34,343 nt of DNA, taken from the IMG/VR virus record IMGVR_UViG_3300047476_001633, positions 1 through 34,343 of that record. One strand, 5' to 3'. Each line of letters begins with the position of its first letter. Positions within the stretch are counted from its first letter, which is position 1. Below the pieces are notes generated by a model, which saw nothing but the letters and a program-made list of their open reading frames with translations, was not told the DNA's origin and made no database searches. The stretch is from a virus. Below are positions 1,536 to 34,343 of this stretch, in pieces. Made by a program: the position numbers and the translations under genes.

Positions 1536-1654
1536 TCACCAACCGGCCAACCACGCCTCTAGGTCGGCCCAACTTCCGGCAACGCGGGGCGGTCGCCCTG
1601 CGGCCATGGCGGCTTTCCAAACTAGGTAGCGGGCCCACCGTCGCCCGGTTCTGT
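1536..1654 (-). CDS. Frameshift extension of the tail-assembly chaperone (GT-type product)
   Basis: In the -1 frame relative to the upstream chaperone gene, the sequence after the A-run is open across the zero-frame stop at 1624-1622 and continues for 39 codons to a TGA at 1538-1536. It ends in W-A-D-L-E-A-W-L-A-G-W. Fused to the first 238 codons of the upstream gene this gives about 277 residues. Such G/GT pairs, made by a -1 ribosomal slip, are standard in siphovirus tail assembly: G is the chaperone, and the T part contacts the tail tube subunit. Evidence is the slip heptamer, a downstream hairpin and the open frame; no family match was run. Confidence 0.65.
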
Positions 1655-2368
1655 TTTTTTTTCCACCCAACGGCGTATCGTTGGGAAATCCAACGCACAA
1701 TGAACCAACGCGTCGCGGGCCGTCACCGTGTACACCTCCTCAAACAAACTCAGTTCGGCGTGTGAAATTCGATAGTTGGCGGTTAACGCTGCGACGGCTA
1801 ATTCGTCGATCGGTTCAAACTCAAACGTTTTCGCATCAGCGGCCACGGCTTCCTGGTGCGCGTCGGCGTACAAATTAGCCAACTCCAAAAACCTGCGGTA
1901 TTCCTTGGCGACTTTCACGGGTCGCCATTTACCTGTTTTGCCGTCATACCCTAGGGTGCGGGGTAGGGGGGTGTAATAACTGGACGTTTCAACGTCGAAC
2001 CCTCGGGCCACGGCTGCCACCCAAACCGAACCGTCCCCGAGTGTAACGCGGTGGCCGTCTAGCATTTTGGGGCGCTCGAGTTTGGACGGATCCAACGGAT
2101 CGGCGACCCAGCGGCCCACGTAGCACTCTAGCCCGCTGTCGGAAAACACCGGCGCCCAAATGGTCGCCTGTTTATCCCATTTCAAATCGCGGTCATCATA
2201 GACTTTGGAACCGTTAGAAAACCGGAATAACCAACCCGGCCCGCTTCCGTTTGGCCCTGCCATAACTTCGCGTGTTTGGTAGGTTGCCCCACGGTCGCAC
2301 GCGTATTGTAAATGGGGTGGCACCGCAAACGGTGTCCCCGGCCCCTTGGGGGCGTAGTACATAAACAT
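1622..2368 (-). CDS. Tail-assembly chaperone candidate (G-type, zero-frame product)
   Basis: The 248-residue protein starts at an ATG (2368) and has no family that I recognise from residue identity alone. The first ~150 residues include an aromatic, beta-rich part (YACDRGATYQTREVMAGPNG, then VTLGDGSVWVAAVARGFDVE). The last ~90 are helical (EYRRFLELANLYADAHQEAV, then LAVAALTANYRISHAELSLF). The reason to call it a chaperone is position plus mechanism: it lies two genes after the presumed tail tube gene, and nine A residues near its end form a slip site that would fuse it to a 39-residue extension. The N-terminal half is larger than usual for G proteins, so a fusion with another tail function is possible. 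Confidence 0.6.
   Translation of the reverse strand: MFMYYAPKGPGTPFAVPPHLQYACDRGATYQTREVMAGPNGSGPGWLFRFSNGSKVYDDRDLKWDKQATIWAPVFSDSGLECYVGRWVADPLDPSKLERPKMLDGHRVTLGDGSVWVAAVARGFDVETSSYYTPLPRTLGYDGKTGKWRPVKVAKEYRRFLELANLYADAHQEAVAADAKTFEFEPIDELAVAALTANYRISHAELSLFEEVYTVTARDALVHCALDFPTIRRWVEKKTEPGDGGPAT
1630..1661 (-). promoter_or_regulatory. -1 programmed frameshift site: A AAA AAA heptamer plus hairpin
   Basis: On the minus strand the zero-frame codons GAA AAA AAA ACA contain the heptamer A AAA AAA (1661-1655) within nine consecutive A residues. After a 7-base spacer comes a stem CGGGC (1647-1643) pairing with GCCCG (1634-1630) over an 8-base loop. Spacing and layout match bacterial and phage -1 frameshift signals. 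Zero-frame translation ends 31 bases past the slip; the -1 frame stays open for 39 codons. Confidence 0.65.
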
Positions 2369-4041: not shown

Positions 4042-4860
4042 TTACCCTGGGAACGCTAACGCACGGCTCGAACGTCGGCGCGGGCTAGGTTGTGCCGGAA
4101 CGAAATAACTGCGCCGTCTCTCTGGTTGGTAAAGCAACCCACCACCACGGCCTTGTTCAAAAATGAAACGGGCTTCCGGTGCGGTAAGTGCTACATTATT
4201 GAAAACAATTACATCATCGAGCATACCGCTGTATGGGCTTGTACCGTCGTAACTTGTTCCAAGAGTTATTCGATTGCCGGGTAGTGATCCTGTTAGTATC
4301 CCTGTCCCTTGAGTATTATAAGATGCCGGACGTAACACGCCGTTACTATACATTAGAAACGAGGAATCTCCGTTGCCTCCATCCCAAGTCGCAACAATAT
4401 GCGTCCATGAGCCAATTGCAGGCCAACCTATTTGAACTGATTTAAGTCCACCGCTTGCATGGTTAATCAACTGGAGTCGAATCGCAGAATTTACAGTAGC
4501 CGCAATCAAATAAAATGGTCGAAAACTCACCGATTCGCCGCACATTATTGGTATGGGGTTTGTTGTATTTGTCCATGATGTCGGATTAAGCCAACACGAA
4601 ATACTCATTGATGAAAAGGCAGGAATAAAAGCTGAGCTTCTTGCGTAGTCATTTACGCCATCTAAAATCAATGCAAGCTTATCAGGACTGGTTACATACG
4701 CATCATTTGCATTGTTTGAAAAATTGGACAACGTACTATGTGCCGCCAAACGCGATACGTCTGGCAATTGCAATCCAGTGTTGCCTGTGAACGATGGACA
4801 AGCTCGATAGGCAATTCTAGGTGCAAGGCTTTCCCATTCTCGCGTGTAGTATGCAAACAT
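4042..4860 (-). CDS. LamG/concanavalin-like jelly-roll protein, probable receptor-binding or decoration protein
   Basis: The 272-residue product has a LamG-type lectin fold from about residue 60 to 225. Key pieces are LALILDGVNDYARSSAF, MSISCWLNPTSW, GSWTHIVATWDGG, FLMYSNGVLRP, RITLGTSYDG and YSGMLDDVIVFNNVALTAPE, the classical strand order. The tail ends in RGGGLLYQPERRRSYFV, an Arg-rich close I associate with planctomycete phage LamG proteins. It starts in a TAATG overlap with the gene upstream. By eye its base composition is clearly more AT-rich than the rest of the window, so it may have been acquired separately. Carbohydrate binding at the virion surface is the likely role; the ligand is unknown. 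Confidence 0.8.
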   Translation of the reverse strand: MFAYYTREWESLAPRIAYRACPSFTGNTGLQLPDVSRLAAHSTLSNFSNNANDAYVTSPDKLALILDGVNDYARSSAFIPAFSSMSISCWLNPTSWTNTTNPIPIMCGESVSFRPFYLIAATVNSAIRLQLINHASGGLKSVQIGWPAIGSWTHIVATWDGGNGDSSFLMYSNGVLRPASYNTQGTGILTGSLPGNRITLGTSYDGTSPYSGMLDDVIVFNNVALTAPEARFIFEQGRGGGLLYQPERRRSYFVPAQPSPRRRSSRALAFPG

Positions 4861-5942: not shown

Positions 5943-7235
5943 CTAACTCCCCTTAATAAATGAAATACAATCCCATTTGGCATCGGATTGGACGTATTCG
6001 AACGCCACGCGGTCTATTGTGTTGGCCGTTGTACTCAACACCACGTTTGCCGCTGCCAAATCTCCCCTAAATCGGTATTCGTTTCCCCATGTAACGGTGC
6101 GGTTTCCGTTTCCATCCTGTTGGATCCGCAAAATAATCACACGCCCATTGGTCGCGTTTGTTGGGTTGTCTATGGTTCGGTTTCCGCCCAACGTAACGTG
6201 AAATTTGTTGGCCGTTGCCGCGTTAACTCCAATGTTTGGCGCATCGGTCAACGTTTCAATTTGTAGATCTAGGGCATCGGTAAAGGTCTTAACCCCGCTA
6301 ACGCTTTGGTCGGTAGTTGTGCGCACCACACCGGAAACGGCCAACGTGCCTGCGGTGAATTGCAAACCGTCCCCGATTGTCGCAACGCTTACCGTTGCAC
6401 CATTGCCCACAAACACCCCGGTTAACGTGGTAGTGGTTGTAGCTGTAACGGTGTTAGGCCCGACTGGGCCCTGAGCACCGGTCGCACCTGTGGCACCTTG
6501 TGGGCCTGTGGCACCCTGTGGCCCGGCTGGGCCTTGGGCACCTGTCGCCCCGGTGTCTCCCCTCGGAATCACAAAATCAAAAACCGCTGCGCTCGAGGTT
6601 CCCGAGTTGTTAACCGTAGCATTGGATCCGGCGGATCCGGTGGTTACACTTCCAACCCCAATGGTGGCTGCGTTACCGGCTGGGCCCTGCGATCCGGTCG
6701 CACCCGTCGCACCTTGTGGGCCTGTAGCACCTTGTGGCCCGGCTGGGCCTTGGGCACCTGTTGCCCCGGTGTCTCCCCTCGGGATCACAAAATCAAAAAC
6801 CGCCGCGCTCGAGCTTCCCGAGTTGCTAACCGTGGCATTGGATCCGGCGGATCCGGTGGTTACACTTCCAACCCCAATGGTGGCTGCGTTACCGGCTGGG
6901 CCCTGAGATCCGGTCGCACCCGTCGCACCTTGGGGGCCTGTAGCACCTTGTGGCCCGGCTGGGCCTTGGGCACCTTGCGGGCCGGTCGCACCTTGTGGCC
7001 CAGCGGGCCCGGTGGCGCCTGTGTCTCCCCTCGGGATCACAAATGCCAACACCACGTTTTGCGTTGTACCTGTGTTCGTTACGGCGGCCTGGGATCCTGC
7101 GGCACCCGTGGTTGTAGATCCAACGTTCACGGTGACGGTTCCACCCCCACCACCACCGTTGGGTACGCCATAACCGGCGGCAATTTCCACCACAATTGGC
7201 GGCGGTGGTGTAACGTCAATGATCGTATCGGCCAC
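5943..7235 (-). CDS. Collagen-like tail fiber / adhesin
   Basis: Starting at a GTG with an AGGGGG ribosome site that overlaps the previous stop, this encodes 430 residues. After a Gly/Pro-rich start come three copies of a module: a beta-rich spacer (GSVTTGSAGSNATVSNSG, then FDFVIPRGDTGATG) followed by collagen Gly-X-Y triplets (GPAGPQGATGPQGATGATG). Two of the modules are nearly identical at DNA level (216-bp period). The last ~150 residues form a separate domain (GVVRTTTDQSVSGVKTF, then NKFHVTLGGNRTIDNPTNAT, then VAFEYVQSDAKWDCISF) like trimeric fiber tip or appendage domains. The protein probably forms a collagen-type trimer on the tail or capsid. Confidence 0.85.
   Translation of the reverse strand: MADTIIDVTPPPPIVVEIAAGYGVPNGGGGGGTVTVNVGSTTTGAAGSQAAVTNTGTTQNVVLAFVIPRGDTGATGPAGPQGATGPQGAQGPAGPQGATGPQGATGATGSQGPAGNAATIGVGSVTTGSAGSNATVSNSGSSSAAVFDFVIPRGDTGATGAQGPAGPQGATGPQGATGATGSQGPAGNAATIGVGSVTTGSAGSNATVNNSGTSSAAVFDFVIPRGDTGATGAQGPAGPQGATGPQGATGATGAQGPVGPNTVTATTTTTLTGVFVGNGATVSVATIGDGLQFTAGTLAVSGVVRTTTDQSVSGVKTFTDALDLQIETLTDAPNIGVNAATANKFHVTLGGNRTIDNPTNATNGRVIILRIQQDGNGNRTVTWGNEYRFRGDLAAANVVLSTTANTIDRVAFEYVQSDAKWDCISFIKGS
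6550..7030 (-). repeat. 216-bp near-identical tandem modules in the collagen-like gene
   Basis: The stretch around 6679 (tgggccctgcgatccggtcg) recurs with one change at 6895, exactly 216 bases (72 codons) later, and the flanking sequence is nearly identical over the whole unit. A third, more diverged module starts near 7030. The unit corresponds to one spacer plus collagen triplet block, and likely expands or contracts by recombination. Confidence 0.8.
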
Positions 7236-9576: not shown

Positions 9577-11946
9577 TTACGCCGTGCAACGTACCATTGC
9601 GGCGGCCTTGATAACGCCAACGCCAACGTCGTGGGCGATGTCCCAACCAATACCGAATTGGCCTGGTTGGGTTAGCGGTCGAACGCGAATGCTCGGGGCT
9701 CGGCCCGTGCCGCGTCGGTAACCGACTTGGATAGCTTGCTGGCCGGATTGCTCGGCAATGTACCACGTGGTTGCCGAACCACTTAGTTTGGTTTCGGTGC
9801 GCGGATCTACCACGCCAACGTCCATGCGGGCATCGCTGCGGAGTTGGTATTCGCCGCTAAACGGGTTAGCGTTTCCGGCCTGGGTTGTATTCCCGCTAAC
9901 CACCAACGTGGACGCGGTGATTTGCTTACCCAGCGGTCGCAACGCTCGGGGCACAATCAAGAATCCGGCCATTAGATTTAGCGGCCTGGAAACGCCTGAT
10001 TTGTTTTTAACGGTTTGGGCGGCCATGGCTTGCTCGGCCTTACCAAGATTGTCCAGCGTTAGCGGGTTAGTTGTTACCACGTTTCCACGGCTCGAATGAA
10101 ACAACGTGGTTCCGTCGCCCAAATTGCCGTTGGCCTGTAGCACCGCGTAAACCAAATCTGGACGCAACCGCGCGGCCATTAGGCCCATTTGTTGCGGCAT
10201 CGTTTGGTTTGCTCCAACGGTATCGTCGATAATGTCCATTTCGTCCAAAACGAAACGGCCAGTGTACCGGCTCACGGCGTAGGCTTCGCCGTAATCGGCC
10301 AAATCCACGTCTTTAGCCTCGGTTCCACGGGTGTGGCGGCGTAGGCCCTGGGTTGCATCCAAACCAATGGGTTGATTAATTCGGAAATCTGGCCAATCGG
10401 CCTCGGCTGTCCAACCAAGGGTCGAATCGGCAAACTCGGCATACCCTTGGATCAATCCAACCGAAACAATGGCGCCAAACACGCGGGGCAAATAGGGCGT
10501 CGAAAACGAACGCTGAACCATTTCCTCCACGTCGCACGAATCGCTTTCACCGGCTAGCCCTAGGATCCGTTCGCACGTGCGTGCGGCTGAATCGGCTTGA
10601 AACCGGCGTCCAATGTCAATGTGTTGTTCGAGTTGGCTGTTTCCATCGCTTCCAATCTCGGAGTTAAACGCGTGCAACCAACCGCACCCGCTGCGCTCGA
10701 GAACCACGCGGGCGGCCTCGGTGCCGAAAACGGGGTTTTGGAGATTTACGCCCGCACGCAACAAAACCGCCGCCTGCAACGACTCAACCGTTGCACCGCG
10801 CCGTTGGTGAACCGCTGGGGCTCGGTTTACACCGTCGCCGCTTTGGCTCGTTTGGTGTCCAGCGGATTGGCCGCGTAAACGCTCCAAAACCGCCAAACCG
10901 AATTGCTCGGGGCTTAGTCCGTCGCTAATCGCACGCGTTACGATTTCGTCCGGTTGGCCTTGGCCTAGCTCGCGGATCCTCGAAACCCTCGCGCGTTCTT
11001 CTCGGCGTGCTGCCTCGATTTGGTCGGGCGTTGCATTGGTGCCCGCTTGTGCGTCGGCTCGGCGGTCGGCTTGCTCGAGCGCTTCGCGTCCGTTCGGGCG
11101 TTGTTGGCGTGCAACCTGTTGGTTGCCTTCACCGTCGCCTGCGTCGGTGTCTGTGTCCGGCCCTTCGCCATTGGTGGCGATCACCGCACGCATTGCTTGC
11201 CGTGCGGCTCGGCGTTCTTTGGTCGGTCGGCTCGATTGATTGCTCGGGCCGTTGCTGCGGGCTGCTTGCCTGCGTGTGGTCTTGGTCATTTTGTCCTCTG
11301 TTGAAATAGGCCCACCAGTGCCGGGTATTGACTCGGGCAATTGTTGCCGGTTGTTTTTTGCTGTCCGAATTTGCGAACGAATAACCGCTTTTGGGTCTGC
11401 GGGTTGGTCTACCACGCTTGTTTCGTGCGCGTTCCATTTCTGAACAATCCGCATTGGTCGGTCGCCTGCGGTGTATTTGCTTTTCCCGTACCGTGCCGTT
11501 TGGCCTGGTTGCAACGTGGTTGTGTCGGCCATTTTGTAAGTTGCACCGATGGAAACAGAATCTAGGTTACCCTCACTAACTCGGGTGTAAATTTCTTCAA
11601 CGTCGGCGGCACGGCTAAACGTCAAAGTCGCGTTAACGTCTGTCTCGGTGATTTCAAAATCGGTGACGCGTCCAATTACGCTGCGGCTTGAATAGCTGTA
11701 GTGGTCTAAACGTAGCGGCATTTTTGGCGGTTCGATCATGCCTGCGGGCAACAATACCTCGTCGATCCACCCGTATTCGCCGTTTCCTAAATCGTCATAG
11801 ATTTGCACCGGCGTATCGGTTGCAATCGTTGCCCTAACGGTTCTGGCCGTGTTGTTCAACGATTGCGGCGGGCTCGCGGCTGCGGCCCTTCGATGCGTGG
11901 CCCGAGTTGCACCGGTTTTCGCTCGGCGTTTTACTGTTCTAGTCAT
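9577..11946 (-). CDS. Prohead protease-major capsid protein fusion
   Basis: The 789-residue product joins three parts. Residues ~35-200 are a U35/HK97-type prohead protease: His82 in LRLDHYSYSSRSVIGRVTDF, the Ser segment DSVSIGATY (~129-137), and HETSVVDQPADPKAVIR with the conserved PAxPxA wording. Residues ~200-400 are low-complexity, charged and Gln/Arg-rich, as expected for a scaffold (delta) domain. From ~480 onward is a Mu gpT/HK97-like capsid domain (FADSTLGWTAEADWPDF, LVYAVLQANGNLGDGTTLFH, TSxPL-type beta parts). Fused protease-capsid genes are known in several phage lineages. It starts six bases after the portal gene ends. Confidence 0.9.
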   Translation of the reverse strand: MTRTVKRRAKTGATRATHRRAAAASPPQSLNNTARTVRATIATDTPVQIYDDLGNGEYGWIDEVLLPAGMIEPPKMPLRLDHYSYSSRSVIGRVTDFEITETDVNATLTFSRAADVEEIYTRVSEGNLDSVSIGATYKMADTTTLQPGQTARYGKSKYTAGDRPMRIVQKWNAHETSVVDQPADPKAVIRSQIRTAKNNRQQLPESIPGTGGPISTEDKMTKTTRRQAARSNGPSNQSSRPTKERRAARQAMRAVIATNGEGPDTDTDAGDGEGNQQVARQQRPNGREALEQADRRADAQAGTNATPDQIEAARREERARVSRIRELGQGQPDEIVTRAISDGLSPEQFGLAVLERLRGQSAGHQTSQSGDGVNRAPAVHQRRGATVESLQAAVLLRAGVNLQNPVFGTEAARVVLERSGCGWLHAFNSEIGSDGNSQLEQHIDIGRRFQADSAARTCERILGLAGESDSCDVEEMVQRSFSTPYLPRVFGAIVSVGLIQGYAEFADSTLGWTAEADWPDFRINQPIGLDATQGLRRHTRGTEAKDVDLADYGEAYAVSRYTGRFVLDEMDIIDDTVGANQTMPQQMGLMAARLRPDLVYAVLQANGNLGDGTTLFHSSRGNVVTTNPLTLDNLGKAEQAMAAQTVKNKSGVSRPLNLMAGFLIVPRALRPLGKQITASTLVVSGNTTQAGNANPFSGEYQLRSDARMDVGVVDPRTETKLSGSATTWYIAEQSGQQAIQVGYRRGTGRAPSIRVRPLTQPGQFGIGWDIAHDVGVGVIKAAAMVRCTA

Positions 11947-29852: not shown

Positions 29853-30143
29853 TTAATACCGGTTTGTGGAACTGCATTGAACGCACGGCCAGACACGCAC
29901 CAAACCGTGTGTTGGGCACCTGCGTGGCTTGCTCAATTGCTCGAACGCTATTTTGGGGCCGTCGTCCGACTCGTCCGATTCCTGGGCGCTCCACGCGTCA
30001 TAGACTTTTTGCCGGTGGTAATCCACTGTCGATTTCCCCACGCCCAATCGTTTCGCAACGCTGCGTAGGCTCCCCTCGCAACGCTGGATAAACGCAATTT
30101 GTTGGGCGGTTAATCGCTGGTTTTTTTGCCGCTGGGCTTCCAT
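29853..30143 (-). CDS. HTH plus zinc-binding regulator candidate
   Basis: The 96-residue protein has a helix-turn-helix (IQRCEGSLRSVAKRLGVGKS, then TVDYHRQKVYDAW) and a C-terminal CPTHGLVRVWPCVQC metal motif, the CPxHG/WPCxxC wording I associate with planctomycete phages. The start codon lies six bases from an inverted-repeat structure that could hide its ribosome site (see 30149-30217). It is the first gene after the terminase, so it may regulate the tail operon that follows, autogenously or otherwise. Confidence 0.65.
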   Translation of the reverse strand: MEAQRQKNQRLTAQQIAFIQRCEGSLRSVAKRLGVGKSTVDYHRQKVYDAWSAQESDESDDGPKIAFEQLSKPRRCPTHGLVRVWPCVQCSSTNRY

Positions 30144-33672: not shown

Positions 33673-33981
33673 TTAACTTCCAACACTACCAAACCCAGCG
33701 GCACCCACGGCGGGTTTACCGCTTAACAAATCCATTGCTTGCAACACGTGCCATAACGCCTTGGCGTTTACGTCGGCGGCCTGTGGTGTCTTTTGTAATT
33801 GCGACAATCGGGCCGCGCACGCTTCTAGCACACCCTCTACGCTTGCCCCATGGCTCTGGACGTTTGGCGGTAGATTTACCGGGGCCCAGTTAATTTTCGT
33901 GTTGGAACTTACTAGCGAATCCCCGCCATAGTCGTTCCCGTTCGGGGTGGTCAAAAATCGGTGTTTTTGTTGTTGTTCCAT
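33673..33981 (-). CDS. Small soluble protein of unknown function
   Basis: The start overlaps the papain-like peptidase stop as TAATG. The 102 residues begin EQQQKHRFLTTPNGNDYGGD and end with Gly-rich AAGFGSVGS; the middle has ASVEGVLEACAARLSQLQKT and AKALWHVLQAMDLLSGK. I do not recognise a family. Being co-translated with the peptidase, it could be its partner or inhibitor, which is a guess. Confidence 0.6.
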   Translation of the reverse strand: MEQQQKHRFLTTPNGNDYGGDSLVSSNTKINWAPVNLPPNVQSHGASVEGVLEACAARLSQLQKTPQAADVNAKALWHVLQAMDLLSGKPAVGAAGFGSVGS

Positions 33982-34343
33982 TACGCTGCCCGTTGTGTTT
34001 CGTACTTGGTAACGCTGCGAATCGAAAACGCTTCGTGGGGTGTGGCTCTGGCCTCGGTTAGAACGGCTCGGCCCTTATTTTCCCAATCTTCTCCCCACGA
34101 ATTGCGGATAATCACGCCATAACTACCACGCCCTAGAACTACCAAACGCGTTGCGAAAACCAAATGGCCCCACCATGCTAACCCTAGGGTCACTGGGAAA
34201 CCTGATAACAACGCGGTTGCGACGGCATCGAACGATTGGCTCGGTAGCTCCTCAAACTCCACCGCTTTGTGCAACTGTGCGTTTTCGCGTTGCTCTGCGG
34301 TATCGTATCGGCGATCTAAAACGGCCTCGGGCCAATGCTCCAC
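33981..34343 (-). CDS. Papain-like (C1 family) cysteine peptidase, C-terminal part cut by the window edge
   Basis: The frame enters at the right edge and reads VEHWPEAVLDRRYDTAEQRE, then LAWWGHLVFATRLVVLGRGS, then IIRNSWGEDWENKGRAVLTE. H60 (of this piece) and N81 in NSWGEDW are the catalytic His and Asn of papain-like enzymes. The apparent GTG at the very edge is simply the cut frame and not a start. The N-terminal half with the active Cys is at 1-362. Both are in the same direction and fit one protein, with an unseen middle of roughly 35-45 residues. Confidence 0.8.
   Translation of the reverse strand: MEHWPEAVLDRRYDTAEQRENAQLHKAVEFEELPSQSFDAVATALLSGFPVTLGLAWWGHLVFATRLVVLGRGSYGVIIRNSWGEDWENKGRAVLTEARATPHEAFSIRSVTKYETQRAA

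Follow-up and report, generated by a model that had tools for sequence, protein, structure and literature searches.

A conserved −1 frameshift at nine A residues in a putative tail chaperone gene of an undescribed phage clade

Xu, Hendrix and Duda reportedly described a conserved frameshift in the tail assembly chaperone genes of long-tailed phages. In lambda, the two products are gpG, with 140 residues, and gpGT, with 279 residues. Low-level G-T frameshifting is widely conserved among long-tailed phages, in some of them without stimulatory signals, and the chaperone ORFs of different phages show low sequence similarity (PMC5009743). Transcriptional slippage at A-runs has been described for Thermus thermophilus dnaX, which carries nine A's, for mxiE and spa13 of Shigella, and for IS elements (PMC1088944, PMC5009743). 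Selection against such slippage is visible at nine A's in many bacterial genomes (PMC1088944).

In the present study, we analyzed a frameshift gene on the minus strand of a viral DNA of 34,343 bases (the window, which is the whole of IMG/VR record IMGVR_UViG_3300047476_001633). The coordinates of the gene and associated features are summarized in Table 1. The 248-residue product ends in ...RRWVEKKTEPGDGGPAT. The codons at the slip site are GTG GAA AAA AAA ACA, and the nine A's span GAA AAA AAA ACA; A_AAA_AAA, a heptamer of the X_XXY_YYZ form, is thus in the right phase for a −1 slip, and it stands in the zero-frame phase in all ten loci compared. The initial annotation had placed A_AAA_AAA in the correct phase within nine A's without naming the strand, and we confirmed this on the minus strand. 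Its coordinates and numbers for the −1 frame, which runs past the zero-frame stop and ends after 39 codons to give a product of approximately 277 residues (238+39 = 277 aa), also held. As it had further anticipated, the extension escapes ordinary gene calling: the ORF list closes the gene at 1622. Apart from the slip site, no run of at least nine A's occurs on the coding strand, whether in the window or in any of the nine loci scanned in the relatives.

Table 1. Positions of the frameshift gene, its elements and associated genes in the window
Feature	Position	Strand	Basis or remark
Zero-frame gene, 248 aa, G-like product	1622-2368	(-)	ORF; stop TAG 1622-1624; kept in nine relatives, 59-97% identity
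Slip site, run of nine A's	1654-1662	(-)	A_AAA_AAA in zero-frame phase, 1661-1655
−1 frame extension, 39 codons + TGA (1536-1538); NRTGRRWARYLVWKAAMAAGRPPRVAGSWADLEAWLAGW	1536-1655	(-)	−1 frame only: pN/pS 0.38
Candidate 5-bp hairpin, CGGGC/GCCCG, after 7-nt spacer	1630-1647	(-)	Drawable; unsupported as conserved element
Gene of unassigned role, 71 aa	2401-2616	(-)	Between probable major tail protein and frameshift gene; 36-87% in all loci scanned
Probable major tail (tube) protein, 304 aa	2620-3534	(-)	Position, size, conservation; no family match
Probable tape measure protein, helix-rich, 717 aa	27455-29608	(-)	703-717 aa in relatives with start seen; no family match

Relatives were collected by profile scans of IMG/VR, which yielded nine further contigs that include the complete gene end (59–97% identity); one additional related contig was cut off upstream of the gene end and is outside this count. 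Exactly nine A's were kept in all nine relatives reaching the slip site. The zero-frame stop lies 27–30 nt past the run in each of them, and each carries a −1 extension of 38–39 codons with an identical end position. Twenty of the 39 extension residues were invariant among seven representatives. Homologues without an open −1 extension were sought, and the extension was present in 9/9. A search for the extension across related phages had been proposed earlier as a check; a scan with the extension alone recovered the same nine IMG/VR contigs, with a 39-aa match in place in each. Since the nine relatives keep the frameshift layout, we concluded that the frameshift is real. Searches of isolated phages and of bacterial and archaeal genomes found no relatives, and a scan with the 304-aa major tail protein candidate added no contigs to those already known. 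The phage clade is undescribed, with no close isolated relative found.

Selection on the three frames was assessed by computing pN/pS among the seven representatives. Past the zero-frame stop, pN/pS was 0.38 in the −1 frame versus 1.48 in the zero frame and 1.31 in the +1 frame. The +1 frame, which is also unconserved and contains stops in some relatives, was rejected as coding. Variable columns past the zero-frame stop numbered 14, 11, and 23 at the first, second, and third −1 codon positions, respectively. When substitutions were shuffled, 0 of 20,000 trials matched the identity observed after the zero-frame stop. The −1 frame in this region is under purifying selection. In the 30-nt overlap, pN was 0.165 and pS 0.491 in the −1 frame, versus 0.301 and 0.168, respectively, in the zero-frame tail. 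The constrained frame in the overlap is the −1 frame, not the zero-frame tail.

The position of the shift may be narrowed from the relatives. In loci L007–L010, a −1-frame TGA directly precedes the A-run, with no start codon between it and +55; the shift is therefore confined to the A-run or the next 30 nt. The +55 start codon, an ATG in most loci that is absent from L012, sits downstream of some 16 conserved extension residues. The −1 ORF might be open by chance, might be a small gene of its own that starts at the +55 ATG of most loci, or might result from misassembly of the A-run, given that homopolymers are prone to sequencing errors. However, the nine other contigs are in agreement, and if the runs had ten A's throughout, a zero-frame stop 30 nt on is not expected to persist in every locus. 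A coding signal is also present to either side of the +55 ATG. Because L012 lacks this ATG and L007–L010 have the −1 stop right before the run, the extension cannot be explained by an independent start; this candidate was ruled out. We consider the chance, small-gene, and assembly-error explanations to be highly improbable. Conservation in nine relatives, selection on the −1 frame, and the stop before the A-run together establish that the extension is made by frameshifting. The comparisons show that the −1 extension is translated as part of a fused product, with entry at the A-run.

The initial annotation had also described a 5-bp hairpin downstream of the slip site. Five pairs may be drawn 7 nt past the site; however, the pairing is no better than in shuffled sequences. 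Its pairs were formed in 85% of cells versus 81% after shuffling, a level reached by 121 of 500 shuffles; one compensatory change was noted, and the hairpin is broken in L008, L009/L010, and L011. As it did not exceed the shuffles or the column-shuffled controls, the hairpin was rejected as a stimulator. Downstream folding was significant in no locus, and no upstream SD-like element was conserved across the ten loci. The sequence GGTGG, which abuts or nearly abuts the A-run, was rejected as an SD-like element because it is unconserved (5/10 loci).

We consider it probable that this is a G/GT-like two-product gene operating by a −1 slip at the nine A's. Most decoding would end at the zero-frame stop and give the 248-aa protein, and a minority would slip one base within the nine A's and give the 277-aa protein, the last 39 residues of which would come from the −1 frame. 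The likeliest mechanism is ribosomal slippage on A_AAA_AAA that needs no strong stimulator. If RNA polymerase slipped on the same run, the resulting proteins would be identical, and this mechanism may contribute to or replace the ribosomal one: transcripts with ten A's would carry the −1 frame in register, and their ordinary translation would produce the 277-aa protein. Because both mechanisms yield the same protein, the sequence cannot tell them apart.

Polymerase slippage is a serious alternative because the run stays at nine A's while its phase changes between clades. The run is split around two Lys codons as 2+6+1 in seven loci, 1+6+2 in L006 and L012, and 0+6+3 in L011; in an independent gene tree with a weakly supported deep fork, the latter two types fall outside the other clade. 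Ribosomal slippage would need only seven A's, and no ribosomal stimulator is conserved. Nine is also the length of the Thermus dnaX slippage run and a length at which selection against slippage is visible (PMC1088944). However, there are just three run types, and the constant length could therefore reflect shared history; by a rough estimate with an A-after-A frequency of 0.34, three independent runs would all be exactly nine with a probability of ~0.003, or all at least nine with ~0.02. Moreover, the canonical in-phase A_AAA_AAA is also kept in every locus, the G/GT frameshifts on record are ascribed to the ribosome, some of them without the need for a stimulator (PMC5009743), and polymerase slippage would also yield +1-frame products, whereas the +1 frame is unconserved. 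We regard slippage by the polymerase as an appreciable possibility, although we do not favor it. Ribosomal slippage is placed somewhat ahead, and both may act. We tentatively raise, as a rather unlikely possibility, that the clade controls the ratio between its two chaperone products by polymerase slippage on the conserved nine A's, alone or with the ribosome, and that these products belong to a chaperone family without sequence relation to known ones and encoded apart from the tape measure gene.

The frameshift gene is best read as a G/GT-type tail chaperone gene, based on its anatomy and its site just downstream of the probable major tail protein. The part common to both products may bind the tape measure protein, as in G/GT, and the rare tryptophan-rich tail may recruit the major tail protein. 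Alternatively, the frameshift may be real but the gene may encode a different type of virion or assembly protein, one requiring a longer form in minor amounts. Sequence searches matched the 248-aa protein to none of the chaperone families, and a fold comparison of its model, a poor one, gave no match. Its structure was predicted twice, with 4 and with 10 sequences, and confidence was low both times; the AlphaFold model had a pLDDT of 52.6. Residues 1–86 form a large predicted beta-rich N-terminal part, better modeled than the rest, and this part is a point in favor of a non-chaperone protein, as is the lack of a family or fold match. The location of the tape-measure candidate also favors this alternative: in relatives spanning the interval, the frameshift gene is not directly upstream of the candidate, but ~6–7 kb away, behind terminase genes. 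The initial annotation had described the layout as classical for tail chaperones. The conserved −1 frameshift near the 3′ end agrees with this description; the tape-measure candidate, ~6.8 kb downstream and past lysis-like and terminase genes, does not. However, in every locus the gene closely follows that of the probable major tail protein, separated from it by the 71-aa gene, and the −1 tail is short and W-rich. There is also no alternative chaperone candidate beside the tape measure gene; the conserved 96-aa gene there was rejected for this role because it is helix-turn-helix-like. We therefore regard a non-chaperone function as unlikely and retain the G/GT reading.

Both the major tail protein and the tape measure protein are assigned by inference. 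The head genes are of the lambda/Mu type, with a portal (Phage_portal_2), a gpA-type terminase, and a fused protease/capsid. In the relatives, the gene order is portal, protease/capsid, neck and fibre-like genes, the 304-aa protein, the 71-aa gene, and the frameshift gene. Beyond the frameshift gene, most relatives carry membrane-protein-like genes and a papain-like peptidase, and contigs reaching further show TerS, TerL, a helix-turn-helix-like gene, and then the tape-measure candidate. The genome in the window is circularly permuted, and the cut falls within the papain-like cysteine peptidase gene (1–491 and 33981–34343); the complete order is therefore visible only in relatives. At this junction, ~106 bases are missing relative to L004 (11857–12837).

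Several other features of the genome were noted. The head protease and major capsid protein are apparently fused in a 789-aa gene at 9577–11946 (PHROG 4523/133, Phage_capsid_4), and a 96-aa helix-turn-helix/zinc-finger-like protein is encoded at 29853–30143, between TerL and the tape-measure candidate (59–99% in relatives). A LamG-domain protein and a protein with collagen-like repeats are encoded at 4042–4860 and 5943–7235, respectively. Identity to L004 is 46% for the LamG protein and 94–98% for its neighbors, which suggests that the LamG protein is fast-evolving or exchanged, and perhaps receptor-binding. A ten-T run occurs in the neck-gene region of L008 (L008:3422).

The present results provide comparative evidence for a working two-product frameshift gene in a clade for which no close isolated relative was found. 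They suggest an annotation rule, namely, that the end of the frameshift gene should be inspected for nine A's. As the run length is kept while the phase changes, the clade also offers a natural test of ribosomal versus polymerase slippage.

The frameshift is a further case of the G/GT type, a kind known from the tail-chaperone genes of many phages. Unlike lambda gpG/gpGT, with which there is no detectable sequence relation, the main product is larger, the extension is only 39 aa, and the tape-measure candidate is ~6.8 kb away with terminase genes between. The locus resembles transcriptional slippage sites in having nine unbroken A's on the coding strand, the length of which is kept whatever the phase; it differs from those cases in that every locus also has A_AAA_AAA in phase, and polymerase slippage is here only a candidate. 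As in the G/GT genes of long-tailed phages, the slip may work without a strong stimulator (PMC5009743). Similar to lambda gpG/gpGT, the −1 shift is located near the 3′ end of a gene that follows the probable major tail protein, and a main product would be accompanied by a minor, C-terminally extended product.
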